This document shows positions 22,301 to 38,560 of a DNA stretch of 64,000 nucleotides, piece by piece (the stretch's first letter is position 1; every line of letters begins with the position of its first letter). The stretch spans positions 5,220,501 to 5,284,500 of the forward strand of contig NZ_CP097800.1 of NCBI RefSeq assembly GCF_000612545.2, in the 5' to 3' direction. This DNA comes from Streptomyces sp. PCS3-D2 (GTDB lineage Bacteria; Actinomycetota; Actinomycetes; Streptomycetales; Streptomycetaceae). A program made the translations under genes and the position numbers. The notes beneath the pieces were generated by a model, which worked only from the letters and a program-made list of their open reading frames with translations, was not told where the DNA came from and searched no databases.

Positions 22301-22301
22301 G

Positions 22302-23639: not shown

Positions 23640-23685
23640 GGCTGGGGGTCTTTCTGGTTGACGGGGTGGCGGTGCGACCGACACC

Positions 23686-23722
23686 CCGTAACTGAATTCT
23701 GCTATCCATGAGGGGTGGGTGG
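23686..23722 (-). promoter_or_regulatory. Degenerate copy of the phage promoter/operator box
   Basis: Read leftward, GGATAGCAGAATTCAGTTA matches the GATAGTAGAATTTAGATA core of the five strong boxes with a few changes, but no TTGAC is found at the -35 position. It lies just upstream of the leftmost phage gene, so it may be a weak promoter or an operator only. Confidence 0.5.
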
Positions 23723-23739
23723 GTGTACGCACCCACCCC
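23712..23739 (-). terminator. Hairpin after the ParB-like gene
   Basis: GGGGTGGGTG at 23712-23721 pairs with CACCCACCCC at 23730-23739. It sits 11 bases beyond the stop of the ParB-like gene and directly before the degenerate promoter box, so it may close that operon. Confidence 0.55.
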
Positions 23740-23749
23740 GGGGGGCGTC

Positions 23750-25291
23750 CTACTTCTTCTGCCGGGCGGGCCGGTACCGCTTCAGGCCGTCGGCGAGGAC
23801 TTCGGCTTCTACCTCGCTGAGGGTGTAGCCCTGGCCCTTCAGGAAGCTCAGCCAGGTCACGCAGTTCTCATCGACGTTCCGCCAGGCGCCGTCGTGCATG
23901 TTCTCGCTCTCGAACATGGCCGCCACCTGGGCCAGCAGCAGCCTCCACCGCCGGGACTTCGGTGTGGTCGCGATGAGCTTGGCGTAGGGGCCCTTCACCC
24001 GGTTCCACTGGTTGCGGTCCTTGTTGGGGTCCGGGATGCCGAGGAACGCGGAGATGAGTTCGGTCTTCGGGTTGCTGGCGTGGCGGCCGTAGTAGACGGA
24101 GGTGCCGGTGATCACGCTGAGGATCAGGGTCCATGTGGTGTCGTCCGCCTCGCCGTTGGCCGCGCACATTTTGGTGATGAACTCCCAGCGGACCGTTCGG
24201 GCCGTACGCCACGCCTTGTTGTAGCGGATGACCTTGCGGCGCGCGTCCAGCTCCTCGGGGGTGGACTTGCCCTTCTTGCTGGCGGCAGCGGCTTCGTCGG
24301 TCAGCTCGTGCCTGTACCGCTTCCAGTCGGTGCAGACCCACTCCACCTCGACCTCGCCGGGGGCCAAGGCTGCGGCATGACCTGGGCACTTGGCGTGGTG
24401 CTCGGCCGTCATCGGGTTGCCGATGCCGGTCACCAGGTCGGTCAGGAGGCGGGACTTGTCGTTCTCCCGGTGCGCCCGCCAGACCACGATCTGGATGCCC
24501 TGCTCGGCCAGCTCCCTGACGATGCGCTCCCGTTCCTGCTGCTCGTGCTGCGTCTGCCGCAGCTCGGCCAGGGCGTGGGCCCAGTTGCCCCGCTTGTCGT
24601 CTCCCTCCCTGATGTCGCGGCTCTTGGCGCGCTGGAGCTTGGACAGGGCGCCGGGGACCTCTTCCACGGTCTGGAAGTCGGCCATCTCCACCAGGTCGAA
24701 GTCGGCGGTGGTTGCCTCGCGGAGGGCCTTGTCGCTGAGCTTGGCGGCCTGCGGGGCTGCGGTGATCTCCTCAGGTGTGATTCCCAGGGCGCGGGCGGCC
24801 CGCTCCCGCTTGAGCTTGCCCACCGGCATCAGGGCCAGCTGTTCGGCAGCGTCGAGAACGTCGAGGGTTGATGCTTCGCGGCGGTGGACGTTCTCGATCA
24901 CGGACAGGGCCAGCGCCTCGTCGTCCGCGTCGCGCAGGTCCTCGCGGACGATGGCGGGCACCATCTGCACGGGCTCGCCGGCCGCGACGGCCTTCTCCGC
25001 TGCGATCAGGGCGGCCTTCATCCGGCGCTGCCCGAAGACGACGCCGAGCAGTCCGTCCTGTGCGCCGGTCTGCGGCCGCAGCAGCAGCGGGGTGTGGACG
25101 CCGAATTCGAGGACGGAGTCGATAAGCGCCGGGTCGGGTTCGGTGCCGTTGTCGTCGTCGCCCCGCCGCTTGCGGTGGTTGTAGGGGTCGATGATGAGGT
25201 CGCGGGGGTCCACCCATACGAATTCCCCGGTGAAGGCGGTGGTGGTCTCCTGTACGTGGTCGGTGGTGGGCTCGATGGCGGTCGCGGTCAT
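23750..25291 (-). CDS. ParB/Spo0J-like nuclease domain protein
   Basis: A 513-residue protein with an N-terminal ParB-like nuclease domain: WVDPRDLIIDPYNHRKR near residue 26, a middle VVFGQRRMKAALIAAEKA (the G-x-R-R box that binds nucleotide in ParB), and MVPAIVREDLRDADDEALALSVIEN before the HTH-like part. The 300-residue C-terminal half is helical and phage-specific with Trp-rich patches. Such proteins in phages take roles from plasmid-style partition to DNA modification and nicking. ATG 25291 follows GAGGGAGCCGAA. It is the last gene of the first leftward operon. Confidence 0.85.
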   Translation of the reverse strand: MTATAIEPTTDHVQETTTAFTGEFVWVDPRDLIIDPYNHRKRRGDDDNGTEPDPALIDSVLEFGVHTPLLLRPQTGAQDGLLGVVFGQRRMKAALIAAEKAVAAGEPVQMVPAIVREDLRDADDEALALSVIENVHRREASTLDVLDAAEQLALMPVGKLKRERAARALGITPEEITAAPQAAKLSDKALREATTADFDLVEMADFQTVEEVPGALSKLQRAKSRDIREGDDKRGNWAHALAELRQTQHEQQERERIVRELAEQGIQIVVWRAHRENDKSRLLTDLVTGIGNPMTAEHHAKCPGHAAALAPGEVEVEWVCTDWKRYRHELTDEAAAASKKGKSTPEELDARRKVIRYNKAWRTARTVRWEFITKMCAANGEADDTTWTLILSVITGTSVYYGRHASNPKTELISAFLGIPDPNKDRNQWNRVKGPYAKLIATTPKSRRWRLLLAQVAAMFESENMHDGAWRNVDENCVTWLSFLKGQGYTLSEVEAEVLADGLKRYRPARQKK

Positions 25292-25355
25292 TTCGGCTCC
25301 CTCGGAAGTGGGGTGCGGGCGGTGGGTTCGCCCGCACCCCGGTGGTCTGGGTGGG

Positions 25356-25982
25356 TCACGCAGTGGTGGAGGCCTTGGCCTTGCGGGGCGTGGTCCGTCG
25401 CGGGGTGGTCTTCTTCGCGGCCGCCGGCGGGGTGCTCGCGGCGGCCTTCTTCGCACGGGGCCGCGCCTTGGGCGCCGGTGCGGCCTTGGGGGGCTCCTGT
25501 GCCTGGGGCTCACTGGCGGCCGGTGTGGGGTCGGGCTGGTCGGCCTTCGTCGGTGTGGGCTGCGGCGCGTCCGGTTCGGTGTGCTGCTGCTCGCCGGTCG
25601 CGGGGGTCTCGTCCGGCGCGGCGTCCTTCGGCGGGTGAGGGGTTCCGTTCTGGCGGAGCTTGGGGCGGTGGCCGTCCATCGCGGGCAGGAGGCGGGTGGT
25701 GATGACGTCCATGAGGCTGCCGTCGACGGAGGTGTCCTCGCGGAAGGTGACGCCGGCGTGGTAGGTGGGTTCGCCGTCGATCTGGACGTAGGTCTGTGCG
25801 GCGGCGCCGTCCCACAGGTGCCTGATGCCGAGGACCGTGCCGGTGGTGTGGCCGTACTGGATCGTCTTCGGGTCGGGGGTGGTCTCGATGCGGGTCCAGT
25901 CCGGTCCGAGCCGGTCGGCGAGGGGCTCGGCCAGGAGGAGCAGGTTGATCAGGGTGATCCGGGCGGTGGTGTCTGCGGGCAT
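25356..25982 (-). CDS. Phage protein with Pro/Ala/Lys-rich tail
   Basis: A 208-residue protein. The first 110 residues are folded (ADTTARITLINLLLLAEPLADR; DWTRIETTPDPKTIQYGHTTG). The rest is a long disordered tail with Pro-Thr repeats and a Lys/Ala/Arg-rich end like histone H1 (KAAASTPPAAAKKTTPRR), which suggests nucleic-acid binding. ATG 25982 has the prophage's recurring leader CTCTTGGAG seven bases upstream. Between the ParB-like gene and a small unknown gene. No family recognised. Confidence 0.7.
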   Translation of the reverse strand: MPADTTARITLINLLLLAEPLADRLGPDWTRIETTPDPKTIQYGHTTGTVLGIRHLWDGAAAQTYVQIDGEPTYHAGVTFREDTSVDGSLMDVITTRLLPAMDGHRPKLRQNGTPHPPKDAAPDETPATGEQQHTEPDAPQPTPTKADQPDPTPAASEPQAQEPPKAAPAPKARPRAKKAAASTPPAAAKKTTPRRTTPRKAKASTTA

Positions 25983-26016
25983 GGTCGTTCTCCAAGAGAT
26001 GTGGTGCGGGTGAGGG

Positions 26017-26379
26017 TTACGGGCGGTTGCAGGCTTCGCGGATCAGCGCGGCAGCGTCTTCGGGGAGGCTGGTGATCGTGTCGGTGGCGCTGAGGTAGCC
26101 GATGAACAGGACTTCGCCTGCGACCGGTTGTGTGATCTGGGATTCGAGTGCGTCAGAGGCGGCGGCTGCCCACGGGTTGAGAGGCTGGCCTGCGCGGTGG
26201 ACGCGGGCGAGGACGACGATGCTCGGGCCTTCCGGGCGCTCGATGTGCTCGACGGCCTCGGCGCTGTCGAACAGAGCGCGGCCGACGACCCTGTACTGCT
26301 GGCTTCGGTCGGCGCCGAGGTCGTATTCGCGGACCTGGCCGTCGAGGGCGATGCGCAGGGCGGTGGTGGTGTCGGTCAT
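26017..26379 (-). CDS. Small phage protein, first gene of the ParB operon
   Basis: A 120-residue soluble protein with no domain I recognise. It alternates beta strands (LRIALDGQVREYDLG, PSIVVLARVHRAGQ) and ends in a helix with a Cys (LIREACNRP). ATG 26379 is preceded by AGGAGGAGCC. Its start is about 50 bases below the strong promoter box at 26431-26458. Confidence 0.7.
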   Translation of the reverse strand: MTDTTTALRIALDGQVREYDLGADRSQQYRVVGRALFDSAEAVEHIERPEGPSIVVLARVHRAGQPLNPWAAAASDALESQITQPVAGEVLFIGYLSATDTITSLPEDAAALIREACNRP

Positions 26380-26430
26380 GGCTCCTCCTGTGGTTGTCGG
26401 CCTTGGGTGCCCCCCTCAGCTCATATCTAA

Positions 26431-26458
26431 ATTCTACTATCTACGAGGGGGGCGTCAA
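26431..26458 (-). promoter_or_regulatory. Phage promoter box 1
   Basis: Read leftward: -35 TTGACG (26453-26458), 16-base spacer, -10 TAGAAT (26431-26436), within a conserved TAGATAGTAGAATTTAGATA core that carries TAGATA twice, 14 bases apart. It stands upstream of the operon 26379 to 23750. Confidence 0.8.
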
Positions 26459-26490
26459 GCTCGTTCATGCAGGTCAGGGCGGGGGTGGGG

Positions 26491-27276
26491 CTAGGTCATG
26501 CACCAGCCGGAATCGCATCCGGGGTCGAATGGCAGCTCGTCCTGCGCCGCGCGGATCGCGTCGGCCAGCGGGCGGGCGGTGCGGGTCAGGAACACCTCAT
26601 CCCGGCCGAGCGCCGCACGCCGCGCGTTCAGTGTCTCCTCGAGGTCGCACGCCCGGCCGAACAGGTTGGGTCGATCCCTGGCCAGCTCCGACCAGCCCGC
26701 CAGCGTCTTCAGCGGGCAAAACCAGCAGGCCGACTTCGGCGGGGCCTCCAGGCCCTCGTCCGCGATCAACCCCAGGCAGTCCGTCCGCCGCATCCGCAGA
26801 TCCAGCAGCGGGTACGTCACCTCCTCGTACGGCTCGACCCGCCGCGAGGTGGCCCGGCCGATCTCGTCCAAGGAGATCCCGACGCCGACCTCCGCCGGTG
26901 CCCCACGGTGCGCCCCGTTGGCGCGCAGCCACCTCCCTGTCACCTTGATCTTGTGGTCCCGGGTGCAACCGCGGGTGCCCGGCGCCCCGTTGCTCATCCG
27001 TACCGGGATCGGCAGCGACCTGGACCCGGGCCGCATCAGTCGCTCCCACAGGGTTTCCCGCCGTCCGGCGGTCTGCCGGTGAAGGACGTGCAGGCGAAGG
27101 CCGTGCGCGCGGGCGTAGGGTGCGGCGACCCGCTCGATGTAGTCCAGGGTGCGTGGGTCCTCGCTGTCGTCGCCGACGTTGGCGAAGAGGAAGTCGCGGT
27201 GCGGGATCTCCCCGCGGGCAGCCAGCACCATCAGGCCGGTGCTCTGGACGCCCCCGCCATAGCTGACCGCCTTCAC
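26491..27276 (-). CDS. PAPS-reductase-like protein (DndC-like family)
   Basis: A 261-residue protein of the adenine-nucleotide alpha hydrolase/PAPS reductase fold. The PP-loop is SYGGGVQSTGL at residues 5-15, a phage variant of SGGxDS; VGDDSEDPRTLDYI follows. Cysteines at CTRDHK, CLG, CWFC and CDSGWC could hold a cluster or zinc, as in DndC and related sulfur-transfer enzymes. The reaction is unknown; candidates are ATP-dependent activation for DNA or tRNA thiolation. GTG 27276 overlaps the stop of the methylase-like gene (GTGA), so the two are coupled. Confidence 0.85.
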   Translation of the reverse strand: MKAVSYGGGVQSTGLMVLAARGEIPHRDFLFANVGDDSEDPRTLDYIERVAAPYARAHGLRLHVLHRQTAGRRETLWERLMRPGSRSLPIPVRMSNGAPGTRGCTRDHKIKVTGRWLRANGAHRGAPAEVGVGISLDEIGRATSRRVEPYEEVTYPLLDLRMRRTDCLGLIADEGLEAPPKSACWFCPLKTLAGWSELARDRPNLFGRACDLEETLNARRAALGRDEVFLTRTARPLADAIRAAQDELPFDPGCDSGWCMT

Positions 27277-28349
27277 GCGGCCACCGCCGACTCCAGCAGC
27301 GCCTGTGTCTGGCGGATGGCGGCGATCATGCGCGCCGCGCCCATCACCTGGTCGCGGTGTGCGATCACGGCTTGGGCGTGCGCGCGGGCGTCCTCGACAG
27401 CTCGGGGGTTGGCCAGGGAGTCATCGCAGGCCACCACCACGTGCGGGCCCAGACCCCACACGATCGCGTTCACGGCCCCGCAGGCCGCCGCGATCGGGTC
27501 CACGTCGACCATGGACCACTGGAAGTCGGCCGGGTCGAAGCCGCGCCAGCGAACGGCCTGGGCGGCGGCGCGCAGCATGCCGCCGCTCCCGCCGGCCGGA
27601 TCATGGATGTGCTGGCCTGTCGCAGCGCCCCGGGCCGCGACGGCGAGCTCGGCAGAGAACGCGCTCAGCGTCGCCTCCGCGACCACGTCCGTCACGGTCG
27701 GCGGGGTGTGGAACTCGCCCAAGCCCTGTCGGGCGCCGTTGCTCCGGAGCAGCATGATCACGTGAGACAGGGCGTCGGTTCGCGACCGGTCGATCGGGTC
27801 GGCGTGTCCCGTCAGGTCGAAGATCCCGGCCTTCAGGGCAGCCTGGGTGACCACCTTGACGCAGTATGCACGGTGGTCGTCGATCTCGTCCGGCGCGTTC
27901 AACCACTCGTGCAGGACGCGCGCCCGGTCGATCAGGTCGGGGCGGGCCTGCCAGTTCACAGCCCATATCTGCTGGTACATCTCGATCAGCTCGTGCGGCT
28001 TCTGGGCGAGGATCTGCGCCTTGAGGTCGGGGCCGTTGGGGTCACCCTGCCTGACCAGGGAGAGGGCGGCGACCAGGCCGATGGGCACGGCGATGTCCGG
28101 GCCACCGTGTGCGCGGTTCCATGCGTCCGCGACGGCCTCGCCGAGTGCGGCAGCGGTGCGGTGTGCTTGGTCGTCAGACATCCGCTGACGGCCGGCGGGC
28201 TTCGCGCGCGGGGCTGGAGTCGAAGCTGTGGCGGCCGTAGGGCGGACTGTCGCAGCGGGCGGTGCCGTGCGAGAGGGGGCAGGGGCGGGCTTCGAAGGCT
28301 CGTCTGGCTCGGAGGTGAGCGCGGCGAACAGGTCAAGTTGCAGGTCCAT
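27273..28349 (-). CDS. N6-adenine methylase-like protein, degenerate
   Basis: A 358-residue protein. A disordered, Pro/Ala-rich N-terminus (to about residue 55) is followed by an HsdM-like helical region and a Rossmann domain: GEFHTPPTVTDVVAE, then IHDPAGGSGGMLRAAAQ (motif I, usually DPACGSG) and WSMVDVDPIAAACGAVN. Where the catalytic NPPF/Y motif should be, the sequence reads CDDSLANPRAVEDA, and the protein ends about 35 residues later. So it can probably bind SAM and DNA but not methylate. ATG 28349 follows AAGGAGTCACG. First gene after promoter box 2. Confidence 0.8.
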   Translation of the reverse strand: MDLQLDLFAALTSEPDEPSKPAPAPSRTAPPAATVRPTAATASTPAPRAKPAGRQRMSDDQAHRTAAALGEAVADAWNRAHGGPDIAVPIGLVAALSLVRQGDPNGPDLKAQILAQKPHELIEMYQQIWAVNWQARPDLIDRARVLHEWLNAPDEIDDHRAYCVKVVTQAALKAGIFDLTGHADPIDRSRTDALSHVIMLLRSNGARQGLGEFHTPPTVTDVVAEATLSAFSAELAVAARGAATGQHIHDPAGGSGGMLRAAAQAVRWRGFDPADFQWSMVDVDPIAAACGAVNAIVWGLGPHVVVACDDSLANPRAVEDARAHAQAVIAHRDQVMGAARMIAAIRQTQALLESAVAA

Positions 28350-28445
28350 CGTGACTCCTTCGGGGGTGCCGGAACTGGGCGACCCGCCCCGCGGAGGTGC
28401 GGGACGGGTCGGGATCGAGGGGTGGCCCCCTCTCAGTGTATCTAA

Positions 28446-28473
28446 ATTCTACTATCTATAGGGGTGGGGTCAA
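28446..28473 (-). promoter_or_regulatory. Phage promoter box 2
   Basis: Leftward -35 TTGACC (28468-28473), 16-base spacer, -10 TAGAAT (28446-28451), inside the TAGATAGTAGAATTTAGATA core identical to box 1. It precedes the methylase-like and PAPS-reductase-like genes and overlaps the end of the preceding operon's terminator area. Confidence 0.8.
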
Positions 28474-28476
28474 CTC

Positions 28477-28498
28477 CCCTCCGCCGCGCGGCGGAGGG
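28477..28498 (-). terminator. Perfect inverted repeat ending the 30055-28501 operon
   Basis: CCCTCCGCCGC and GCGGCGGAGGG form a perfect 22-base palindrome two bases after the stop codon at 28501 and three bases before promoter box 2. It fits a terminator that separates two operons. Confidence 0.75.
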
Positions 28499-28500
28499 CC

Positions 28501-29082
28501 TCAGCCGTTGTCGAGCCAGAGGAGGCCGTACGGGGTCCGAAGCAGCGTCGTCATCGCGGCCTTGTGTACATCGGCGCCGAGCTCCTGCCAGTTCACCTCA
28601 TCGAAGCCGTCGCGATAGGCCTCGACGTCCACGCAGTGCGGCTGATCGGCGGCCGTCATCACCTGGGCCAGGCTTTCGCCGAACCCGATGACCTGCTCGC
28701 GCATCTCCTGGTGGATGCCCTCCAGGTGATCGCGCCACCGGTCTCCGCGCCGCTCCCACGCGGCGGCGATACCCGGTCGCCAGCCGCGAAAGGGCGACAC
28801 CCCGCCAGCTTCCAGCAGGGCGGCCCACGCGATCGCCCTTTCCCGGTGGAGTAGCTGCGGCAGGTAGGTCAACTCGTACAGGTGCGCGCCCTGCCAGAAG
28901 CTCGGATCCACGAGGGGCGCGTCGCGGGCGGCTGCCAGTGCCGTCTGAGCCTCAGCCCACCGCTCCGTGCGCAGGCGCCGGGAAGGGATCAGGGTCCGGT
29001 ACTCGTGCGCCGTCGCAGGGTTTCGGACTCGGGCGAGCCACGCCCCGCCGGCCGTGAAATGCGGCTGGTCGCTGACGTTCAC
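28501..29082 (-). CDS. Phage protein of unknown function
   Basis: A 193-residue soluble protein, acidic and rich in Trp and Ala (FWQGAHLYELTYLPQLLHRERAIAW). I do not recognise it. GTG 29082 overlaps the stop of the preceding gene by four bases, so it is translationally coupled and is the last gene of its operon. Confidence 0.65.
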   Translation of the reverse strand: MNVSDQPHFTAGGAWLARVRNPATAHEYRTLIPSRRLRTERWAEAQTALAAARDAPLVDPSFWQGAHLYELTYLPQLLHRERAIAWAALLEAGGVSPFRGWRPGIAAAWERRGDRWRDHLEGIHQEMREQVIGFGESLAQVMTAADQPHCVDVEAYRDGFDEVNWQELGADVHKAAMTTLLRTPYGLLWLDNG

Positions 29083-29549
29083 AGGATTCCTCGCAGGTGC
29101 TCCGGCGCGACCGACCGCTCCCAGCGGTCGAACTCGGGCCGCCACATGCGCAGTTCTCGTAGATGCATTGCGGCCTGCGAGGCGTGCCCTGCGCGCTCGG
29201 CCTCGGTCAGGGGTGCTTCGACGCGCGCGCCGCACCACCCAGCCGGCCACGTGGGTCGGGTGGACTGCGGGGCGGCCATCGCCAGATGCCAGTCCAAGTT
29301 GGCGATCAGGGTGTTCGTGGTCTGCGCGGAGATGGGGTCGGCGTCCATGTGGTTGATGAAGTCGGGGTGCGCGGGGGTGACGTGGAAGCTGGCCCGCGCC
29401 GAGTCGGCGGGCATCTCCACCCAGACCTTCTGTCCGTACAGGGGGTGATCGCTCGTGTGGACGACGTACCGGTTCATGGCCAGGCAGGTGCCTTCGGTCC
29501 TCGACAGGTACAGGACGGAGACGCGGTCTCCGATCTTGAACGGCTTCAT
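29079..29549 (-). CDS. Phage protein with SH3-like N-terminus
   Basis: A 156-residue protein. The start KPFKIGDRVSVLYLSRTEG looks like a small beta-barrel (SH3/KOW-like), and the second half is helical (EAERAGHASQAAMHLRELRMW). ATG 29549 has GAAAGGCGG upstream; a longer frame to 29576 would overlap the previous gene. Function unknown. Confidence 0.65.
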   Translation of the reverse strand: MKPFKIGDRVSVLYLSRTEGTCLAMNRYVVHTSDHPLYGQKVWVEMPADSARASFHVTPAHPDFINHMDADPISAQTTNTLIANLDWHLAMAAPQSTRPTWPAGWCGARVEAPLTEAERAGHASQAAMHLRELRMWRPEFDRWERSVAPEHLRGIL

Positions 29550-29572
29550 CGTGCCGCCTTTCGTGGGGGTGG

Positions 29573-30055
29573 TCACGAGCGGGGGAAGGCGCGCTGTGCG
29601 GCGCGGCCGCGGCGGGCTGTGGCTGTGCAGGGCCCCAGGAGTCGTTCAGCAAGGAAGAGGGCTTGCTCGCGGGCGCCGTCGGCGTGCGCCGAGCCGAGGA
29701 GTAGGGCGGCCTCGTGGAACGCCTCGGCGCTCAGGGTGTGCGGCTGGGCGCAGCCGCAGCTGCCCGTGGCGGTCCTTCCGAGCTGGTCGAGCCGTTCCGC
29801 GATTTCGGCGACGGGGATGCATCCCGCGTGGCGGCGCTTCGGTCGGGCGCGGCGGAGGTGGCTGTAGAAGCGCAGGCCGTCCCAGTCGCACAGCAGGCAC
29901 TTCACCGGCCACAGCACGTCCGAGCCCGGGTATCCGCCCCGGGGTGCCCAGCCCAGTTCGCTGATTCGGGCCAGCGCCATCGCGGCGGAGGTGATGTTGC
30001 GGGTGCTGGGCGGGAGTTCGTGCAGGTACTGGCCCAGGTAGCCGTCATCGGTCAT
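29573..30055 (-). CDS. Phage zinc-finger-like protein
   Basis: A 160-residue protein with scattered Cys/His: CLLCDWDG near residue 53, HAGCIP near 76, and GSCGCAQPH near 98. CxxC plus the later His/Cys may form a zinc site. The N-terminal LPPSTRNITSAAMALARISELG could be a helical DNA- or protein-binding part. ATG 30055 follows GAAGGAGTGGAGACC. First gene after promoter box 3. No family recognised. Confidence 0.65.
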   Translation of the reverse strand: MTDDGYLGQYLHELPPSTRNITSAAMALARISELGWAPRGGYPGSDVLWPVKCLLCDWDGLRFYSHLRRARPKRRHAGCIPVAEIAERLDQLGRTATGSCGCAQPHTLSAEAFHEAALLLGSAHADGAREQALFLAERLLGPCTATARRGRAAQRAFPRS

Positions 30056-30122
30056 GGTCTCCACTCCTTCGTGGTCGTCGGGGCGGTGAGGGGGGTAGGG
30101 CACCCCCTCACCGCATATCTAA

Positions 30123-30150
30123 ATTCTACTATCTATCGAGGTGGGGTCAA
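30123..30150 (-). promoter_or_regulatory. Phage promoter box 3
   Basis: Leftward -35 TTGACC (30145-30150), 16-base spacer, -10 TAGAAT (30123-30128), with the TAGATAGTAGAATTTAGATA core. It drives the 30055, 29549 and 29082 genes. Confidence 0.8.
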
Positions 30151-30176
30151 CCTTCTGCCCTTCCCCGGGCGGGGGG

Positions 30177-31616: not shown

Positions 31617-31632
31617 GACGGTGCAGGTCCTT

Positions 31633-31833
31633 TCAGGTGCGGATGAGCCGGGCAAGGGGGTGCCACCCGGCGTACAGGGCGTCGATGAGCGGGTCGTGGG
31701 CGACGAGCAGGCAGACGGGACCTGTGGCGCCCGTTGCGGTCTCGATCACCTCGAAGGCTGCGGCTGTGTCCGTTCGATCGCGGACCGGGGTGTTGTCTGC
31801 CTGGCGCAGCCAAACGCTGGCGCCGCTACTCAT
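31633..31833 (-). CDS. Small phage protein
   Basis: A 66-residue protein with a beta/alpha pattern (TGPVCLLVAHDPLIDALYAGW). ATG 31833 overlaps the preceding stop (ATGA). It is too short to assign. Confidence 0.6.
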   Translation of the reverse strand: MSSGASVWLRQADNTPVRDRTDTAAAFEVIETATGATGPVCLLVAHDPLIDALYAGWHPLARLIRT

Positions 31834-32288
31834 ATCCACCGGCCCTGGATGCGCTGGGCGAGCAGCAGCGTGGCAACGAGGGAGACCGCGTTCTCGTCCC
31901 GGTCGAAGGCCAGCGACTGGGCGGCCATGAAGGCAGGAGTGGCCACGTGGACGAAGTTGGTGCGCTCGGCCACACCGCTTGCGGCTGCCTCCGCTGCCGC
32001 GTCGGAGAAGTACCCGGCGTAGCGGGCCGCATCGTCGTCGGCCTCCCCCGTGAAACGCCCCCGGGCCTCCCACGCAGCCTGGAGCAGCAGGATCCGGCGG
32101 AGCTCAGGGGTGGCCCGCTCCCACATCCACAGGACGCCTCCCTGCGTGGCGAGTTCGAGTGGCGAACGGTGCTCGGCCGGCGCGCGGAGGAGGTTCGCTG
32201 TGACGATCAAGGCTGTGCGGGTGGCGAGGAGGTCGAACACGTCATGCTCCAGGTCTTCGTGGAAGTAGTGGTGAGACGGCCTGGTCAT
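31830..32288 (-). CDS. Helical phage protein
   Basis: A 152-residue protein, mostly helical, Ala-rich. N-terminal SHHYFHEDLEHDVFDLLATRTALIVTANLLR could contact DNA or another protein. ATG 32288 overlaps the stop of the 32593 gene (ATGA). No family recognised; part of the box-4 operon. Confidence 0.65.
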   Translation of the reverse strand: MTRPSHHYFHEDLEHDVFDLLATRTALIVTANLLRAPAEHRSPLELATQGGVLWMWERATPELRRILLLQAAWEARGRFTGEADDDAARYAGYFSDAAAEAAASGVAERTNFVHVATPAFMAAQSLAFDRDENAVSLVATLLLAQRIQGRWI

Positions 32289-32593
32289 CGACGCCGTCCG
32301 GTGTGGGCGGCCTGGTGCACCGAGCGGGAGGCCTCCGTCAGGATCCGTGCGTCGTGGTGGCGGCCCAGGATGAGCAGGGCGCCGACCTCGAACATCGTGA
32401 GCCAGGCGCAAGCGGAGACAGCCGCGGCGAACTCCTCGTAGGTCTGGCCGCTCTTGTGCGGCGGCCGTCGCCGCCAGGCGCTCTGGGTCACCCTGTGCGC
32501 CAGGTTGGCCGCTGCTGCGGTCTGCTTGGGGCTGAGGTTCAGGGCCCCGATGATCTCGGCGGTACCGAGAAGGGGAAGGTTCTTGAAGGACAT
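32285..32593 (-). CDS. Small helical phage protein
   Basis: A 102-residue protein with a possible HTH at the N-terminus (IGALNLSPKQTAAAANLAHRV), followed by YEEFAAAVSACAWLTMFEVGALLILGRHHD. The leader CACCTCTTGGATAACCC just before ATG 32593 is the recurring prophage leader. It is the first of three overlapping genes. Confidence 0.65.
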   Translation of the reverse strand: MSFKNLPLLGTAEIIGALNLSPKQTAAAANLAHRVTQSAWRRRPPHKSGQTYEEFAAAVSACAWLTMFEVGALLILGRHHDARILTEASRSVHQAAHTGRRR

Positions 32594-32650
32594 GGGTTAT
32601 CCAAGAGGTGTAGCGGGGCGCCCGCGAGAGCGCCCCAGCGCGGGTGACGG

Positions 32651-32956
32651 TCAGTGGGAAGCCCAGCCGAAGAACAGCCAGCCGTCCTGGCCGTCGTCGA
32701 GAACGACCGGCAGCGCGCCGGCCGGGCCGCGCTTGTCGGAGATGCGGCGGTCCGCGTTCAGCAGCTGGGAGGCGCGCACGTACGCCTTGTCCGCGCTGGT
32801 GCGAGGTTCGTCGAAGGCCAGGTAGGTGTCCTTTTCGGCGATGCTGCCGGTGTAGCCGCCGCGGCCGTGCTCGTAGAGGGCGGCATCCCGAGCGGCGTGA
32901 AACGCCTGCTCGACGTCTGGGCCGGCTTCGATGTGGTCGAAGTCAACAGCTCCCAT
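32651..32956 (-). CDS. Small phage protein
   Basis: A 101-residue acidic protein (VDFDHIEAGPDVEQAFHAARDAALYE) with a Trp/Phe-rich C-terminus (WLFFGWASH). ATG 32956 has AAAGGGAGACAGCC before it. I do not recognise it. Confidence 0.65.
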   Translation of the reverse strand: MGAVDFDHIEAGPDVEQAFHAARDAALYEHGRGGYTGSIAEKDTYLAFDEPRTSADKAYVRASQLLNADRRISDKRGPAGALPVVLDDGQDGWLFFGWASH

Positions 32957-33031
32957 GGCTGTCTCCCTTTCGGTTTTGGGGTGGGTTGGCATGGCGCGGC
33001 CCGCCCCCGGCGGGGCGGGCCAAGGGGGCGC

Positions 33032-33397
33032 TCAGCGGATGCGGACGCGGATTCGGTTGGTCCGGAGGGGGCTTGCAGGGCGGCGACGGCAGACCGGCGT
33101 GGTTCGCACGTCGTGCAGGAGCTGATCCACCGGGTTGAGGATCGGTGCGGGCGCTGCGGCGACCTGTGCCACGGCGTCGTCGAGGCAGGTGGTCCGCACG
33201 TGGGGGAACTGCTGGTTCCAGCGGCTCATGGCCTCCCCGTCGGCGGGGTCCAGGCCCGCTTCGAGGGCGAAGGCCTCCCACTCCAGCGCCATCGCGACTG
33301 CGGCCCAGGTCAGGGCGACCTCGGCCTGGACCTCGCTGATCGCGTAATCGCGGGAGACGGCCAGCACGCTAATGGGGTCGGTCATCGGGGTGTGCAT
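33032..33397 (-). CDS. Small phage protein, first gene of the DUF3560 operon
   Basis: A 121-residue protein with a helical acidic N-terminus (SEVQAEVALTWAAVAMALEW) and a basic C-terminus (CRRRPASPLRTNRIRVRIR) that could bind nucleic acid. ATG 33397 follows GGAAGGATCGCG. It lies just below promoter box 4. Function unknown. Confidence 0.65.
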   Translation of the reverse strand: MHTPMTDPISVLAVSRDYAISEVQAEVALTWAAVAMALEWEAFALEAGLDPADGEAMSRWNQQFPHVRTTCLDDAVAQVAAAPAPILNPVDQLLHDVRTTPVCRRRPASPLRTNRIRVRIR

Positions 33398-33450
33398 CGC
33401 GATCCTTCCGGTTGGAGTGGGTCGGGGCTTCCCCCCTCCCTCGTATCTAA

Positions 33451-33478
33451 ATTCTACTACCTTCAGTGGGGGTGTCAA
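33451..33478 (-). promoter_or_regulatory. Phage promoter box 4
   Basis: Leftward -35 TTGACA (33473-33478), 16-base spacer, -10 TAGAAT (33451-33456). The core is AGGTAGTAGAATTTAGATA; the first TAGATA is altered relative to boxes 1-3. The consensus -35 suggests it is strong. It drives six genes down to 30177. Confidence 0.8.
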
Positions 33479-33507
33479 CATAAAACCGCAGGTCAAGGGG
33501 GGTGGCG

Positions 33508-33975
33508 CTAGCCCTTCATTGCGAGTGGGCGGCGGGCGCTCCTCGCCCCGCGCTTGCGAATCGTCGCCGCGCCGGCCGCCCGTGACTCCGACCGCTGGGC
33601 CGTGACGCGGCACTGCCCGCACAGCGGCTCCCCGGCCCTCCGGTGACCGCGCACGCCGCTGGGCTCGCCGCAAACGCCCGCGCGCGAGACGAGGGACTTC
33701 GGCAGCGGCGGGGCACCTAGGGCGCGCGCCGCTTCCTGCCCGTTGATCCACAGCCGCGCCGCGCAGACGCCATCGAACTGCGACCCCTTCGGCCGGACTC
33801 GGTCGTAGCACTCCTTGAGCACGGGGCAGTCGAGGCAGGCGCGCACCAGCGGCTCGGCCGTCTTCGCCAGCTTCTCGGCAGGCTCCTCGGCCTGGCCGGC
33901 GGTGAAGATGTAGCTCTCGGAGCCGGCGCAGGCGGCCTGCTCCAGCCAGGTGGTGGCGGCGGTCGAGTTGATCAC
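33508..33975 (-). CDS. WhiB-like [4Fe-4S] transcription regulator
   Basis: A 155-residue Wbl protein. The four cluster cysteines are at AACAG (about residue 16) and CLDCPVLKEC (47, 50, 56). The Wbl turn motif G(V/I)WGG is replaced by FDGVCAARLW. A basic tail (TIRKRGARSARR) would contact DNA. Phage Wbl proteins can compete with host WhiB proteins for the primary sigma factor. GTG 33975 follows AAGAAGGACCTGTC. It is the last gene of the operon that starts at box 5. Confidence 0.85.
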   Translation of the reverse strand: MINSTAATTWLEQAACAGSESYIFTAGQAEEPAEKLAKTAEPLVRACLDCPVLKECYDRVRPKGSQFDGVCAARLWINGQEAARALGAPPLPKSLVSRAGVCGEPSGVRGHRRAGEPLCGQCRVTAQRSESRAAGAATIRKRGARSARRPLAMKG

Positions 33976-34001
33976 GACAGGTCCTTCTTGGGGTCGGGCG
34001 G

Positions 34002-34523
34002 TCAGAACAGAGGTGGCTGAGGCCGCGGAGTCGGGAGGATGGCGTCCTTCGCGGCCTGGGCGCGCAGCTCGAACGCGAAGGCCGTACGGGCCCACGGCTC
34101 GTAGAAGTGCATCCGCCAGGCGTCCGCGTCGCGGAACGGTGCCGGGCCGGGGAGGTAGGAGCGGCGGTGCTCCGTCTCGACGGTGACCGCCTGGCGCAGC
34201 GCGCCGTACCGGACGGGGGTTAGGTGCTCGTCAACCAGCTGGGACACCTGGCGCCAGCTGACGTCGCCGGTGCGCGCGCCGTTGGTGGCGTCCACCGCGT
34301 ACCTGAATCCGCCCGGCCGCCAGGTCCAGCTGCACACGGCTCCCGCGTCCGGCTCGCCGGGCAGCCTGCGCAGGCGCATCCCCTGCTCCCCGCGCTCCCG
34401 AAGCAGCTGGCCAGCCCGCAAAGCCCGTGAGTCGGTGAACGGCAGGTCCGCGAACTCCAGCAGCTGGGCGGGGTTGAAGAAGTCCCGCGAGGCCATGGCC
34501 AGGTCGTTGTCGGTCAGTTTCAT
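34002..34523 (-). CDS. Phage protein of unknown function
   Basis: A 173-residue protein. N-terminus KLTDNDLAMASRDFFNPAQLLEFADLPFTD and a beta-rich part (CSWTWRPGGFRYAVDATNG), then a helical end. Position between the WhiB-like gene and the replication genes suggests a role in DNA metabolism or regulation. ATG 34523 may be coupled to a small frame upstream (TGATG). Confidence 0.65.
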   Translation of the reverse strand: MKLTDNDLAMASRDFFNPAQLLEFADLPFTDSRALRAGQLLRERGEQGMRLRRLPGEPDAGAVCSWTWRPGGFRYAVDATNGARTGDVSWRQVSQLVDEHLTPVRYGALRQAVTVETEHRRSYLPGPAPFRDADAWRMHFYEPWARTAFAFELRAQAAKDAILPTPRPQPPLF

Positions 34524-34684
34524 CAGGGGCGTCCAGTGCCGGGGGGTGTCGATGACCCATGTGGGTAAATAGATGATGGCCTATTTCTGGCCCGTGCAAG
34601 CGCGACAGACTGGAGGTGCCAGTAGCGGCAGCGTTGATGCGGGCGCCGCATGGGCCTGCCGGGGCAGCCAAGTGACTCGGTCAC
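34523..34684 (-). CDS. Possible small basic phage protein
   Basis: A 53-codon frame starts at GTG 34684 with CTGGAGATACC before it and ends with TGATG, sharing a base with the next start. The peptide is basic and Pro-rich (GRPMRRPHQRCRYWH). It fills an otherwise empty 230-bp gap. Composition alone could create it, so the call is weak. Confidence 0.3.
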   Translation of the reverse strand: MTESLGCPGRPMRRPHQRCRYWHLQSVALARARNRPSSIYPHGSSTPPGTGRP

Positions 34685-34759
34685 GGTATCTCCAGGAGGT
34701 TGCAGGTCGCACGTCAGGAAGCGGGCCATTGCGGCGTCAGAATACAGAAAGACGGTGGC

Positions 34760-35605
34760 CTATTTCTCCTGCTGCGTCTTGATGGCCGTCTCGCCGCGCT
34801 TGGCCCGGATCTCGGAGATCGCCTGACGCGCAACGTCCGAGAGCGTCGAGAACGGCTTCGCCCCCTCCGAAATCACCTGGGCATCCCGAGCACGCTGCCG
34901 GGCCTGCGCCGCCTTCCGCGCCGAAGACTCCTCGGCCTCACGGAGCTGACGAGGGCTCGTACCGCAGCCCCGGCACCCGCGGCCCGCCCCATCGGGATGC
35001 ACCCGGCACCCACCGCCGGCCGCAGGCCGTGCCGGTCCGTCTTCTCGGACAGCGGCAGCAGGTCCCCCCGCTGCGCCAGCTGCGGGGGTTAGGGGGTTCT
35101 TCTCTGAGTACTGACTCTGGTTACTACCTATAACCCCGGGCGAACCATGGCTCGGAGAACCGGACACTGGAGAACCGACCCCCGAAAACCCGGTTTCGGT
35201 GGCGTCCGGCGATCCGCCCTCGCTCGCGTCCGGGGCCGCCGCCGTCTGCTCCCGCTTGCGGCGCCGTTCCAACCGCTTCGCCTCCAGCTTCCGGAACTCC
35301 TCGGCCGCCCAGTCCTGCGCCTGGTCATACACCTCCGTGATCCGCCGCAGGGTGCCATCCGTCATCCGCTCCGTCACGACCCGGTAGTAGCCCGCGTCCT
35401 TCAGCTCCCGCAGGGCCGTGCGGACCGCCTCCACGCCCTCCTTGCCCGCCTTGGCGATCCTGTCGGCCGCCACCTTCCACGTGTCCGGTTTCGCCAGCAG
35501 GTAGGCGAGGATGCCGCGCGCACGGAACGACAGGCGGGCGTCCTCAAGGGTGGCGGTCGGCAGCACCGTGTAGCCGCTGCTGAGGTGGCGGCGAAGGATG
35601 GTCAC
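34760..35605 (-). CDS. HTH replication-type protein (DnaD/initiator-like)
   Basis: A 281-residue protein. Residues 10-90 form a winged helix with the phage initiator pattern YTVLPTATLEDARLSFRARGILAYLLAKPDTWKV and a recognition part VEAVRTALRELKDAGYYRV. The middle is a Ser/Pro/Gly linker; a short Cys/His cluster follows (GGGCRVHPDGAGRGCRGCGTSP), and the end is a coiled coil. Such proteins start phage replication with a helicase loader. GTG 35605 follows TCTGGAGATCTTCC. The stop codon lies inside a recurring AAATAGGCC repeat. Confidence 0.75.
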   Translation of the reverse strand: MTILRRHLSSGYTVLPTATLEDARLSFRARGILAYLLAKPDTWKVAADRIAKAGKEGVEAVRTALRELKDAGYYRVVTERMTDGTLRRITEVYDQAQDWAAEEFRKLEAKRLERRRKREQTAAAPDASEGGSPDATETGFSGVGSPVSGSPSHGSPGVIGSNQSQYSEKNPLTPAAGAAGGPAAAVREDGPARPAAGGGCRVHPDGAGRGCRGCGTSPRQLREAEESSARKAAQARQRARDAQVISEGAKPFSTLSDVARQAISEIRAKRGETAIKTQQEK

Positions 35606-35686
35606 GGAAGATCTCCAGAAGGTGTTGTGCGGGTCGAACGGGAGCCGGGCGGCCCAACCCGGTCAGATGCGGGCCGCCCGGCGGTC

Positions 35687-36829
35687 TCAGGCGGCCTTAC
35701 GGGCCGCGGAGACCTTGATCGAGCGGGATGTCTGAGCGGCAGCACGGCGGACCGGCACCACGAGGCCGGCGCGGCGCAGGATCTTCACCATGGCCTCGGC
35801 GTCGGGCACCATCGGCACGACCAGGTCGGCATCCTCGAACAGCGCGACCATGGCGGGCACGTCGGTCTCGTCCCTGTCGTTGCCGCCGCTCCAACCAAGG
35901 TGGTTGGCGCCGTAGTTGCCCTCCGGGGAGGCGGCCAACATCTCGCGCAGTTTCTTCTTCTCGTTGTTGGCGGCCCGCCACCGCTCGTGCGCCTTGACGT
36001 ACGCGGCCAGCGCAGCGGCCCGGTCAGCGTCGTCGTGGACCAACGCAGTCTGCGCAGGGTCCCCCGGAGCTACCTCAGGCCAGCAGGCGGTGATGAAGGG
36101 GCAGTTGTCGCACACCTTCGACAGTCCCGGGCCGTCGTGGTCGCGGCGCAGTTCCTCGGGACTGCCTGCCTCGAGGACGCGCTCCACCCACCAGCGGGCC
36201 TGCTCCGCAAGCCACAGGTCGAAGGGGAACTCCTGCACGTGCTCCTCGCCGGTGTCACGGCACACGAACCTGAACCGGATCCGCTGCACATCCAGTGGGC
36301 CCAGCCGGTGCAGGTACCGCTGGCCGGGAATGTCGGCGAACCCGACCTCGCGCAGCAGCAACGCGTACAGCAGGACCTGCCGCATCTCCGCTGCCGTCGG
36401 CCCGAACCGCACGACACGGTCCCAGATCCGGGCGGACTTGGTCTTCACGTCCTCCACCGTCAGCTCCTCGGCCGGCACGAGCGGCCGATGCCGCTTCGGC
36501 ACACGGGCAGCAGCCTCCGCGTCCAGGTGGACGGCGTCGATGTGCCCGCGGAGCACGTCGTTGGCGACGACGCGTTCGACCAGCCACCCGTACTCGCGCC
36601 GGGCGTCCTCCAGCAGGCCCCGGTGGATGTACGTGCCGAGGATCGCCGCCCGCTTGTCGGCGTAGGGGTTGTCTCGTTCGGTGCCGGCGAGGATGTACCC
36701 GGCGCGGCGCTGGCAGATCGTGTCGGAGGCGCCCAGCTGGGTCTGGACCGAGCGGGGCCGCCGAGCATCAGCGTCGTGGGCGGCGCCCCAGATCGACCCA
36801 GGCAGGGCGGCCGTCGTCATCGTGGTCAT
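35687..36829 (-). CDS. PD-(D/E)XK nuclease (Cas4/RecB-like exonuclease)
   Basis: A 380-residue nuclease. The fold is shown by LGTYIHRGLLEDARREYGW (the early helix), GHIDAVHLDAE (motif II Asp) and ELTVEDVKTKSARIWD (the E-V-K catalytic motif). The following AEMRQVLLYALLL helix is typical of RecB-like nucleases. A CDNCPFITACW cluster near 245 resembles the iron-sulphur cysteines of Cas4/AddB. ATG 36829 carries the leader CACCTCTTGGAG. It adjoins a RecA-like ATPase, so the pair probably performs recombination. Confidence 0.85.
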   Translation of the reverse strand: MTTMTTAALPGSIWGAAHDADARRPRSVQTQLGASDTICQRRAGYILAGTERDNPYADKRAAILGTYIHRGLLEDARREYGWLVERVVANDVLRGHIDAVHLDAEAAARVPKRHRPLVPAEELTVEDVKTKSARIWDRVVRFGPTAAEMRQVLLYALLLREVGFADIPGQRYLHRLGPLDVQRIRFRFVCRDTGEEHVQEFPFDLWLAEQARWWVERVLEAGSPEELRRDHDGPGLSKVCDNCPFITACWPEVAPGDPAQTALVHDDADRAAALAAYVKAHERWRAANNEKKKLREMLAASPEGNYGANHLGWSGGNDRDETDVPAMVALFEDADLVVPMVPDAEAMVKILRRAGLVVPVRRAAAQTSRSIKVSAARKAA

Positions 36830-36903
36830 GCACTACTCCAAGAGGTGGGTGGGGTCCGCCCGAGGCGAGCGGACCCCACGGGATGCCGAGGAAGGGGGTC
36901 GGC

Positions 36904-38001
36904 TCAGGCGGCCGCGTCGAACTCGGCGGATGCCTCCGCCTCATCGCGGATCTGCGCGGCAGCAGCGCGCAGCCGGGCGGCGTCGCTGGTCGGGTCGTCC
37001 AGCTTCTTCGGGTTGCTGAGTTCAGAGGCCCTGCGCTCGATCGCGTTGCGGATGATCGCCAGCTCCTCGCGGTCGAGACCGGACTCCTTCTCTGCGTCCC
37101 ACCACAGCTTCTTCAGGGCCTCGACACCGGTCTCCGCGGCAGCCTTCACCTTCGGCTCCCACACCTGGGCCAGGTCGCCCGTCAGCTCCGGCGTGGCCCT
37201 GGGCTGCGTGTGGATCGAGCAACCCATGAGCCCGAAGACCAAGTGCTCGATGCTGAAGTCCGGCACGTGCATGGGCTTCTTCGCGCTCCGGGGGACGGTG
37301 AACTTCAACGAGCGGGCGCCGACGATCTGCGGGTCCACCTCCCGGCGCAGCCGCACCCACACCGTGGCGTCGTACGCCAAGGACTTCTGCCCCTCGACCC
37401 GCCAGTCCGTGGCCTTCGCGCGAGGGATGGGCTCGCCCCGCTCATCCAGGGCCGCGACCTCCTTGCCGCGCGCAAGGAGGATCACGATGCCGGGCATCGT
37501 GCGCACCAGGTACATGACCCGCGCCCACCTCTCGCCCGCGTCGTTCCAGAGGTTCATGGTGGGCTTGATCTCGGCGTCCGGGTCGGCCTCCAGCTTCTTC
37601 CGGCCGGCCAGGGACCGCTGCGCCCGGACCTGGGTCCAGTTCACGAGCATGCGCCACAGGTTCGACACCGAGTCGATGACCAGAACGACCGGCTTCTCCT
37701 TCGCCCGGGCGGCACGTACGGCCTCGGCGTGGACCGCTTCGATCTGGCCGAGGATGTCACGGTAGGAGCCGTTGTGGTCGATCAGCTCGTAGTCCGCGCC
37801 GGGCACGTTGATGTACTCGTCGGCGGTCTCCTCGCCCAGCTCCAGCCAGTACGCCTGACCGGTCTTGTCCGATCCGGTGAACGCGGCGGCGGTGTGGGAC
37901 TTGCCCGCCTTCTCTTCGCCCTCGACGAGGATCACAGGCCAGGGGATCACACCGGTGGGCTTCCGGGTGCGGAGCTTGGGAGGGGAAGACAGGTTGGACA
38001 T
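36904..38001 (-). CDS. RecA/Sak4-like recombination ATPase
   Basis: A 365-residue P-loop ATPase. Walker A is LVEGEEKAGKSHTAAAF near residue 27-43, Walker B VVLVIDSVSNLW near 106. It lacks RecA's C-terminal domain and matches phage Sak4-like single-strand annealing ATPases in layout, ending in a charged helical tail. ATG 38001 is preceded by CACCTCTTGGAG and GTG 38004 is possible. The neighbouring RecB-like nuclease suggests a phage recombination pair. Confidence 0.85.
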   Translation of the reverse strand: MSNLSSPPKLRTRKPTGVIPWPVILVEGEEKAGKSHTAAAFTGSDKTGQAYWLELGEETADEYINVPGADYELIDHNGSYRDILGQIEAVHAEAVRAARAKEKPVVLVIDSVSNLWRMLVNWTQVRAQRSLAGRKKLEADPDAEIKPTMNLWNDAGERWARVMYLVRTMPGIVILLARGKEVAALDERGEPIPRAKATDWRVEGQKSLAYDATVWVRLRREVDPQIVGARSLKFTVPRSAKKPMHVPDFSIEHLVFGLMGCSIHTQPRATPELTGDLAQVWEPKVKAAAETGVEALKKLWWDAEKESGLDREELAIIRNAIERRASELSNPKKLDDPTSDAARLRAAAAQIRDEAEASAEFDAAA

Positions 38002-38020
38002 CACATCTCCAAGAGGTGTT

Positions 38021-38042
38021 TTAGATGGTGGCCTATTTCAGG
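38021..38042 (-). repeat. AAATAGGCCACCATCT repeat, copies near the recombination genes
   Basis: Read leftward, GAAATAGGCCACCATCTA occurs here between the small 38038 gene and the RecA-like gene. Near-identical copies lie at 38391-38412, 34567-34588 (with an AAATAG/CTATTT inverted repeat) and 34752-34768. Three of four are just upstream of a start; the role may be operator or translational. Confidence 0.6.
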
Positions 38043-38379
38043 CACTGCGAAGGCCGCGCAGCTCGAAGACGGAACCCCACTCCGGGCGCTGCTCCAAGAG
38101 CAGACGGACGTAGCGACTGCGGTAGTTGTTGTTCAGCTTCCAGGTGTCACCCCGGGTGGCGCGGCCGTACTCGTACCGCAGGACCTCGAACAGCATCCCG
38201 ATGCCCACTCGTTGCAGGCCCCGCTCCACGCAGTCGGCGGTCATGGCCTCCAGCTTCGCCAGAATCCAGGGGTTGAGCTCGTGGAACGCCTCGAACCGCT
38301 CCTGAATGCTCAGGTTCCCGCCGGCCGGGTCGGGCTGTCGCAGTGGAGCCATCGGTAGTTCGAGCTGCGTGGAAAGCAT
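38038..38379 (-). CDS. Phage protein, first gene of the recombination operon
   Basis: A 113-residue protein of a family often met in actinophages: SIQERFEAFHELNPWILAKLEAM, then GLQRVGIGMLFEVLRYEYGRA and NNNYRSRYVRLLLEQRPEW. It may be a DNA-binding or Holliday-junction related accessory. ATG 38379 follows GGAGGGATC. First gene after promoter box 5. Function unknown. Confidence 0.75.
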   Translation of the reverse strand: MLSTQLELPMAPLRQPDPAGGNLSIQERFEAFHELNPWILAKLEAMTADCVERGLQRVGIGMLFEVLRYEYGRATRGDTWKLNNNYRSRYVRLLLEQRPEWGSVFELRGLRSA

Positions 38380-38461
38380 GATCCCTCCGGAGATAGATGG
38401 TGGCCTATTTCTACGTCATGAGCGCGGCGTGTTCCAAGTGAACTCGGCGGCCGATAACTAA

Positions 38462-38489
38462 ATTCTACTACCTCTTGTGGGGGTGTCAA
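38462..38489 (-). promoter_or_regulatory. Phage promoter box 5
   Basis: Leftward -35 TTGACA (38484-38489), 16-base spacer, -10 TAGAAT (38462-38467); core AGGTAGTAGAATTTAGTTA. It starts the operon from 38379 to 33508 that holds the replication and recombination genes. Confidence 0.8.
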
Positions 38490-38505
38490 TCACCGTAAAT
38501 GCAGC

Positions 38506-38537: not shown

Positions 38538-38560
38538 AACTGCACCTTGGAGCGGCGCCG

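Follow-up and report, generated by a model that had tools for sequence, protein, structure and literature searches.

What controls a prophage in which several separate operons begin behind almost the same short sequence? The question is raised by a 64,000-nt stretch of the Streptomyces sp. PCS3-D2 chromosome (contig NZ_CP097800.1, positions 5,220,501 to 5,284,500), here called the window, in which five promoter-like boxes stand before leftward operons. All coordinates are window positions, and extended coordinates continue the window numbering beyond its end. An earlier reading made from the letters alone (the sequence-only reading) had proposed that one repressor shuts all five operons together. 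Our follow-up strongly supports the boxes as one prophage regulon and gives good support to a single phage-encoded reader of them; that this reader represses is something we infer. As the regulator we consider the protein encoded by a neighboring gene, g43, most likely, and not one of the proteins that the sequence-only reading had named.

The boxes and the prophage

The window covers the left half of a prophage some 80 kb long. We base this on a tRNA-Val gene at the left edge (attL; 22203-22276, plus strand), part of which recurs as an exact 47-bp repeat reaching the tRNA 3' end at about 102068-102114 in extended coordinates, on a tyrosine integrase (100129-101748) that adjoins the end with the repeat, and on endolysin and tail genes between the two ends.

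Inspection of the sequence found all five boxes where they had been described, with TTGAC, the 16-base spacer, TAGAAT and the core exact, and the set turned out to be larger than described. There are eight boxes in the prophage, all on the minus strand, with the lowest coordinate of their 16-base core at 23689, 26424, 28439, 30116, 33444, 38455, 92424 and 94334. The last two are extended coordinates outside the window (12424 and 14334 of locus L086).

The pattern TTGAC-N17-TAGAAT matches the window five times, each with no mismatch; with up to 2 mismatches allowed, dinucleotide shuffles gave a mean of 1.39 matches and none of 100 shuffles reached five. When we scanned 22500-40000 with a generic sigma-70 consensus, the five promoters found were the five boxes (shuffle mean 0.8). 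The housekeeping sigma factor of the HrdB type recognizes TTGACN and a TAGRRT-like -10 separated by 16-18 bp, with transcription beginning about 7 nt past the -10, and 5/5 window boxes fit this sequence consensus. Rather than the hundreds of chromosomal copies that would speak against a regulon, the whole genome (7,628,241 bases) has six exact copies of the 13-base core TAGTAGAATTTAG and eight with at most one mismatch. Seven of these eight are inside the one prophage, all eight are on the minus strand, and the reversed pattern had no match in the whole genome.

Going leftward, the first box (38455-38489, minus strand; TTGACA-N16-TAGAAT plus the core) precedes g42-g41-g40, which encode a protein of unknown function, a RecA-like AAA protein and a PD-(D/E)XK protein. 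The head gene g42 (38038-38379, minus strand, 113 amino acids (aa)) has relatives in all seven of the other elements described below. The following boxes, also on the minus strand, precede g36-g35-g34-g33-(g32)-g31 (33444-33478), g30-g29-g28 (30116-30150), g27-g26 (28439-28473; N6 methylase-like and PAPS reductase-like) and g25-g24-g23 (26424-26458; g23 is ParB-like). The start of g27 is probably at 28349, because its orthologues in genomes G226, G337 and G380 are 349-352 aa long and start 95-97 nt from the box.

Two degenerate copies had also been proposed, at 23686 and 39189. The first is supported as a decayed box before g22 (23689-23723, minus strand; YgjP-like) that keeps the core as TAGCAGAATTCAGTTA, has lost the -35, and begins its -10 with C where T is expected; it scores 18.9 bits with the matrix described below and lies at an orthologous position, where the g22 boxes of G226, G337 and G380 keep a full -35. 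The second is also real, but is a site of another kind, a reversed core without a -35, to which we return. Of the terminator-like hairpins proposed before some boxes, what stands is a pair of G+C-rich inverted repeats (28477-28498 and 38506-38537); the terminator scan found no hairpin with a T-run at either. Downstream, a 12-bp hairpin is possible at 30083-30114 in the leader of the 30116-30150 box. We rejected leader hairpins as a common feature and consider them a property of some operons, because only 24/60 leaders had z < -1.

The same boxes in related prophages

Among 393 genomes of the genus, 40 match TAGTAGAATTTAGNT with at most one mismatch, and eight, including that of the window, have at least three matches. 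A longer pattern searched against 84,980 species genomes found 28 stretches, 27 of them in Streptomyces and one in a metagenome-assembled genome that resembles a chance match. The eight elements are prophages with common genes in a largely conserved order; in G048 most structural genes lack relatives in the stretches examined, and three of the eight elements are split across two contigs.

We aligned 54 boxes, after five of 59 core matches had been excluded for want of the upstream GAC and CCC. The consensus is TTGAC[A/C]-CCCCC-N8-A-[T/G]AG-TAGAAT-TTAGATA, followed by a G-rich leader. When the 1.18 Mb of sequence examined was scanned with a matrix from this alignment, 64 sites scored more than 12 bits, of which 54 are its own training sites, and the reversed sequences gave none. 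Each element has 7-9 boxes. The elements have eight operon heads in common (g42, g36, g30, g27, g25/g24, g22, g103 and g101), and 58/64 boxes lie ahead of one of these. Related Streptomyces phages do carry the box, before the same heads in seven other prophages.

The boxes precede a replication-like block and a block of small genes beside the repressor end; the structural block between the two had no site in the matrix scan. The boxed operons would be early and replication genes of the phage. Over the 64 boxes, TTGAC is exact in 41, T[TGA]GAC in 55 and TAGAAT in 59, and judged by these parts most boxes look like housekeeping-type promoters with a C-run and an asymmetric core over the -10. Near the repressor end the -35 is weaker: the eight g103 boxes and six g101 boxes have TGGACA in place of TTGACA, except for TAGACA at g103 of G036, so that the g103 box has TGGACA in seven of the eight elements and TAGACA in the eighth. 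This suggests a second promoter class.

Among viral contigs, 69 stretches have the 16-base core, of which 64 were set aside for a G+C of 0.45 or less without individual reading, and two of the other five, both on one contig, are true boxes. Saccharomonospora phage PIS 136 (45001-94870) had no site above 8 bits, and the named-phage collection had neither a near-identical DNA match to 22300-42000 nor a relative of g43 at E 0.01. We found no description of the box or of the prophage family in the literature searched, most subscription journals falling outside it. Many genomes of the genus have singletons resembling TAGTAGAAGTTAGTT or TAGTAGAATTTCGCT (loci L096, L098-L105, L108-L113 and others). 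We rejected these as boxes; at the loci viewed they have other conserved flanks and neither a -35 nor a C-run.

The strong support for one prophage regulon comes from three properties taken together: the boxes are phage-specific, their positions in the eight prophages are orthologous, and the flavour of a box, meaning the variable bases around the core, is shared within an element across unrelated operons.

The boxes of an element change together

To separate the effects of operon and element we made a two-way comparison of 55 of the 64 boxes; of the others, six had been given no head gene and three scored no more than 30 bits. For the -35 and C-run, the mean difference was 0.138 between boxes of the same operon in different elements and 0.207 between different operons of one element, so this part varies by operon and not by element. 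The two bases before the -10 follow the opposite rule, with a difference of 0.118 within an element across operons against 0.327 between elements at the same operon (0/500 permutations as large). The bases after the -10 are likewise linked to the element (0.275 against 0.307; 0/500 permutations). In G090 and G156 the flavour is GAG at 16/16 boxes, and in the other six elements it is TAG at 47 of 48 boxes and AAG at one.

Less closely related phages, which we found by way of g43, have the same layout of boxes but a changed core in their copies. The core is TAGTAGAATAAT in G447, GAGTAGAATT in G343 and GTTAGTAGAATA in G339, and ATATAGAATAG or close to it in G285, G318, G011, G312 and G358. In G277, G026, G321 and G324, whose first helix-turn-helix (HTH) in the g43 protein resembles that of this last group, we found the same or a close core at one or two places each (in three of them through loci of about 3.5 kb). 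Such concerted change at unrelated operons points to one reader encoded by the element, and we regard a single phage-encoded reader as well supported.

The core lacks symmetry, and no covariation links the C and G arms. We rejected a 42-bp dyad operator formed by the C-run and the downstream G-run, since an arm paired with its own partner had no advantage over shuffled pairs (1597 of 2000 shuffles did as well). A palindrome, AGTGATATCACT, was considered as a site at the repressor locus and also rejected; its three copies in the G156 element lie in cargo away from the repressor (contig C387, about 32965, 85849 and 96453; loci L129 and L158), and none was seen in the other seven elements.

A reversed site beside g43

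The gene g43 (38561-39160, minus strand) encodes a 199-aa protein, precedes the g42 box, and has relatives in all seven other elements. About 35 bp before its start, at 39189-39203 on the plus strand, is a reversed core of the operator type (GATAGCAGAATACGG, or TAGCAGAAT on the plus strand). It has no TTGAC or other -35 and no C-run, and has C where the promoter has T.

Outside the boxes, the pattern [TG]AGNAGAAT occurs 14 times in the eight elements. Eight of these are one per element, reversed, and 34-43 bp from the g43 start; five are intragenic and one is in cargo of G090. The T or G flavour of the g43 site equals that of the element's boxes in 8/8, and all eight have C at the first T of the -10, because of which the site cannot be a promoter of the box kind in its own direction. 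No reversed site of this type was found at g103 or g23 in the eight elements.

We viewed 29 elements, 13 of them distant, and the reversed site is present by inspection in 16/16 elements of the core family, with GAG flavour in G156, G090, G343 and IMG2802 and GTTAG in G339 and IMG2933. With a matrix built from each element's own boxes, 17 of 21 elements (six distant, with two other cores) match the g43 site at a level seen in at most 21 of 2000 random windows. This is a conservative figure, because the random windows may themselves include boxes. A reversed site that matches the boxes in flavour would be the trace expected of an autoregulated reader.

g43 as the proposed reader

The AlphaFold2 model of g43 (made from six sequences; mean predicted local distance difference test score (pLDDT) 68, predicted template modeling score (pTM) 0.66) has an HTH and strands that could form a wing in each half. 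From these two units, g43 is probably a tandem winged-helix DNA-binding protein, and we propose that it reads the boxes as well as its own site. It matches PHROG 597, 'DNA binding protein' (E 3e-5).

We compared GAG phages (3) with TAG phages (9) for columns of g43 that separate them, and found such columns at 8/24 in the first HTH (residues 8-31) and 14/160 elsewhere (Fisher p 0.0025, with the limits of the HTH chosen after the columns were known). All four strict changes, of one residue to one other residue, are in this HTH. The linked genes have few separating columns (g41 1/329, g40 7/261).

Several results weigh against g43 as a repressor that reads these sites. Nothing convincing was found for it in Pfam, NCBIfam or PDB, and the model is only moderate, with pLDDT below 50 at residues 26-36 and 48-55 of the first unit. 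The GAG set is also separated by columns in g23 (81/389), g108 (53/242), g101 (20/78) and g109 (10/55), the trees of g43, g41, g40 and g23 do not break the linkage, and the covariation of g43 with box flavour is confounded by ancestry. The second HTH showed no significant association with the base after the -10 (p 0.22). IMG2802, which has a box stretch identical to one in S. aureocirculatus contigs that carry both TAG and GAG, mixes the two flavours, and IMG2933 has three different flanks; neither element follows a strict flavour rule. With the own-box matrix, G338, G024, G176 and G006 (4 of the 21 tested) had no matching g43 site. Finally, the promoter parts are not always complete, as the counts of exact TTGAC and TAGAAT given above make clear.

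Other readings of the boxes

The first alternative keeps g43 as the reader and makes it an activator, or an accessory factor for initiation, that would guide the RNA polymerase of the host to the promoters of an infecting phage. BldC-like and MerR-like proteins include activators, and the faint matches of g43 are to proteins of these kinds; the resemblance of the boxed operons to early and replication genes, the 16-bp spacer and the weaker -35 of the g103 boxes would all suit an activator. Activation should be unneeded, however, because the promoter parts fit the host housekeeping consensus, with full TTGAC in 41 of 64 and TAGAAT in 59 of 64; the position of the recognized core on the -10 itself and that of the reversed site near the g43 start also speak against an activator. 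We think this reading unlikely.

It is also rather unlikely that another conserved phage protein (the ParB-like g103 or g23, or g108) reads the boxes and that g43 is one more target. The ParB family includes a repressor with dispersed operators, KorB of RK2; g103, whose domains are ParB_N and HTH_ParB, is preceded by a box, and residues of g23 and g108 follow the GAG set as well. The core is not palindromic, however; discriminating residues are few in the genes beside g43 and clustered in the first HTH within it, and g43 has a reversed site like none at g103 or g23. Two more candidates were considered on the basis of their distribution. The sigma-like g45 was rejected, as five of the seven other elements have no relative of it; a WhiB-like reader is conceivable, though g37 lacks a relative in two elements.

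The XRE immunity repressor at the integrase end, which the sequence-only reading had among its candidates, is an improbable reader. Immunity repressors that read dispersed operators are described for L5-clade phages in excerpts of two papers (PMC9283540, PMC6550527). The presumed repressor of our elements is of two types, A (160-168 aa; G000, G226, G337 and G380), with an HTH_3 domain by family search, and B (266-270 aa; G036, G048, G090 and G156), which looks XRE-like by eye from its sequence. These types have no similarity at 1e-5 and accompany almost identical boxes, which makes the immunity repressor a poor candidate for a shared box. The HTH gene at 42916-44160, also suggested earlier, fares no better, having no relative at 1e-5 in the stretches examined from the other seven elements.

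That the boxes are plain host-type promoters, conserved through recent common descent or promoter strength only, is very improbable even with a TTGAC-N16-TAGAAT that fits the housekeeping consensus, as the core is nearly invariant among genes of the boxed block (g22-g42) whose proteins are down to 29-86% identity with those of the window, the flanks change together by element, and a copy without promoter parts persists, reversed, at g43.

Proposed mechanism

The account we prefer, by a small degree over its being wrong, is that the boxes are phage early promoters with a shared operator and that g43 reads all of them, and its own site, as a repressor. A temperate Streptomyces phage would have the boxes as its early promoters, suited to the housekeeping sigma factor of the host by a 16-bp spacer and, in most, a full or near-full -35 and -10. 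One asymmetric operator ([T/G]AG-N-AGAAT and its flanks) would overlie each promoter, centered on the -10, and the recognized bases would extend from the end of the spacer across the -10 toward the start site. The most likely reader of this operator is the g43 product, which when bound over the -10 would exclude RNA polymerase, and a single protein could in this way silence seven or eight separate operons together. Binding to the reversed operator at its own start would add negative autoregulation.

We favor repression because the core lies across the -10 in a full promoter, where a bound protein would exclude polymerase. Both repression by g43 and its action in the lysogen are steps that we infer; g43 might act in upholding lysogeny, or in shutting off early genes late in infection.

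Tentatively, and with some doubt, we extend this to a new family of phage regulators that would have tandem winged helices in a single chain and no relationship to the immunity repressors known so far. Each would keep a private set of seven to nine promoters, with a specificity rewritten at least four times (TAG, GAG, GTTAG, GCCTATAG and TGCATATAG flavours) as the promoters and the autoregulatory site changed in step. Each HTH would read one side of the -10, and the protein and the sigma factor would compete for the same bases. For this Streptomyces prophage family, the analysis provides a candidate master regulator with about eight natural targets per genome and several specificity variants. 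The system seems suited to studying how a regulator and its dispersed sites can change specificity jointly without loss of control, and in our judgement could yield orthogonal repressor-promoter pairs for Streptomyces.

Other repeats and genes of the prophage

The boxed regions have other repeats. The sequence TGACCTGC occurs about 10 nt upstream of TTGAC at 8/8 g25 boxes and 6/9 g36 boxes (about 26470 and 33490 in the window, and in relatives), and is kept there though the upstream genes are unrelated. A second dispersed motif, AGAAATAGGCC, is found at 38402, 38030, 34757 and 34578 (minus strand) and at about 11647 of L086, with one mismatch at two of these five, and often lies 23-55 nt upstream of start codons. 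Its 3' part is specific to the element, often ACCATCTA in the window prophage, ACTAC in G337 and GCTG or GCTACT in G036 and G048; no exact copy was found in the scanned parts of G090 and G156. A repeat resembling a ribosome site, ACCTCTTGGA(G), has self-complementary ends and up to seven copies per 20-kb stretch, in leaders of the elements and of distant relatives.

There are two WhiB-like genes. One is at 33508-33975 and matches WhiB PHROGs; the other, at about 94.45-94.78 kb in extended coordinates (L086), is directly upstream of the ParB-like g103 and was recognized by its cysteine pattern alone (C-x16-C-x2-C-x5-C). A 306-aa protein at extended 98546-99466 (18546-19466 of L086, minus strand), with the tyrosine integrase adjacent, is similar to a serine-integrase-like PHROG in the C-terminal half of the latter only, and is present in six of the seven other elements. 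The genes at 39517-40698 (CoiA-nuclease-like), 42916-44160 (the HTH regulator), 44211-44537 (CutA1) and 46369-47268 (unknown) are likely passenger genes, because they have no relatives at 1e-5 in the seven other elements.

Comparison with known systems

A lambda-type switch has operators at pL and pR only, whereas here eight boxes are spread over about 70 kb and two repressor types go with one box. The contrast with pL/pR drawn by the sequence-only reading was fair, although dispersed operators are known from L5-clade phages and from phiC31.

BldC, a MerR-like regulator of Streptomyces, is a faint likeness. The g43 family matches NCBIfam HTH_BldC at E 0.013 (15.3 bits, far under the family cut-off of 77), HTH_17 at E 0.064 in one of six sequences, and PDB 6amk, which we take to be BldC, at E 1.2; unlike BldC, g43 apparently has two such units per chain.

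The Streptomyces phage phiC31 (AJ006589) also has dispersed repeats before many operons. By our count a palindromic repeat around TCACGTGA is present 16 times, and GGTTGCCGACTCCC 11 times on the plus strand at up to two mismatches and twice on the minus strand with two mismatches. Presumably the former are the CIR repressor operators and the latter the lytic early promoters studied by Ingham and co-workers in the 1990s. These are two separate repeat families, one palindromic and the other without a conserved -10, in contrast to the single asymmetric core of the window box, for which phiC31 gave one poor match only at up to five mismatches.

TraN of pIP501, as an excerpt of its description has it, is a monomeric repressor with two winged helices that controls its own promoter (PMC10877727). 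Two winged helices and control of the own promoter are what we propose for g43; TraN has few sites and belongs to another kind of element, and we make no claim of homology.

A further parallel is the L5 clade. In the excerpts cited above the repressor is a monomer that carries two DNA-binding domains, and its asymmetric sites, of which there are more than twenty, are dispersed, some in promoters and most outside them, with motifs that vary by lineage and track the repressor (PMC9283540, PMC6550527). No homology was found when 11 sequences of the g43 family were compared with Bxb1 gp69 by hhalign (probability 27%, over a 16-column HTH stretch), nor any similarity of g42 and g40 to D29 gp70 and gp69. 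The prophages of this study differ in the number and placement of their sites, since an element has one reversed site and 7-9 boxes, the boxes lying almost without exception ahead of operon heads and none of the sites being recognized as a stoperator, and in having a separate presumed immunity repressor. They share with the L5 clade asymmetric dispersed sites and lineage-specific flavours that track the proposed reader, and may also share a small reader with two DNA-binding domains, as the moderate model of g43 would suggest. By analogy, and without detected homology, the g43 protein and its boxes would work like the L5 stoperator system.

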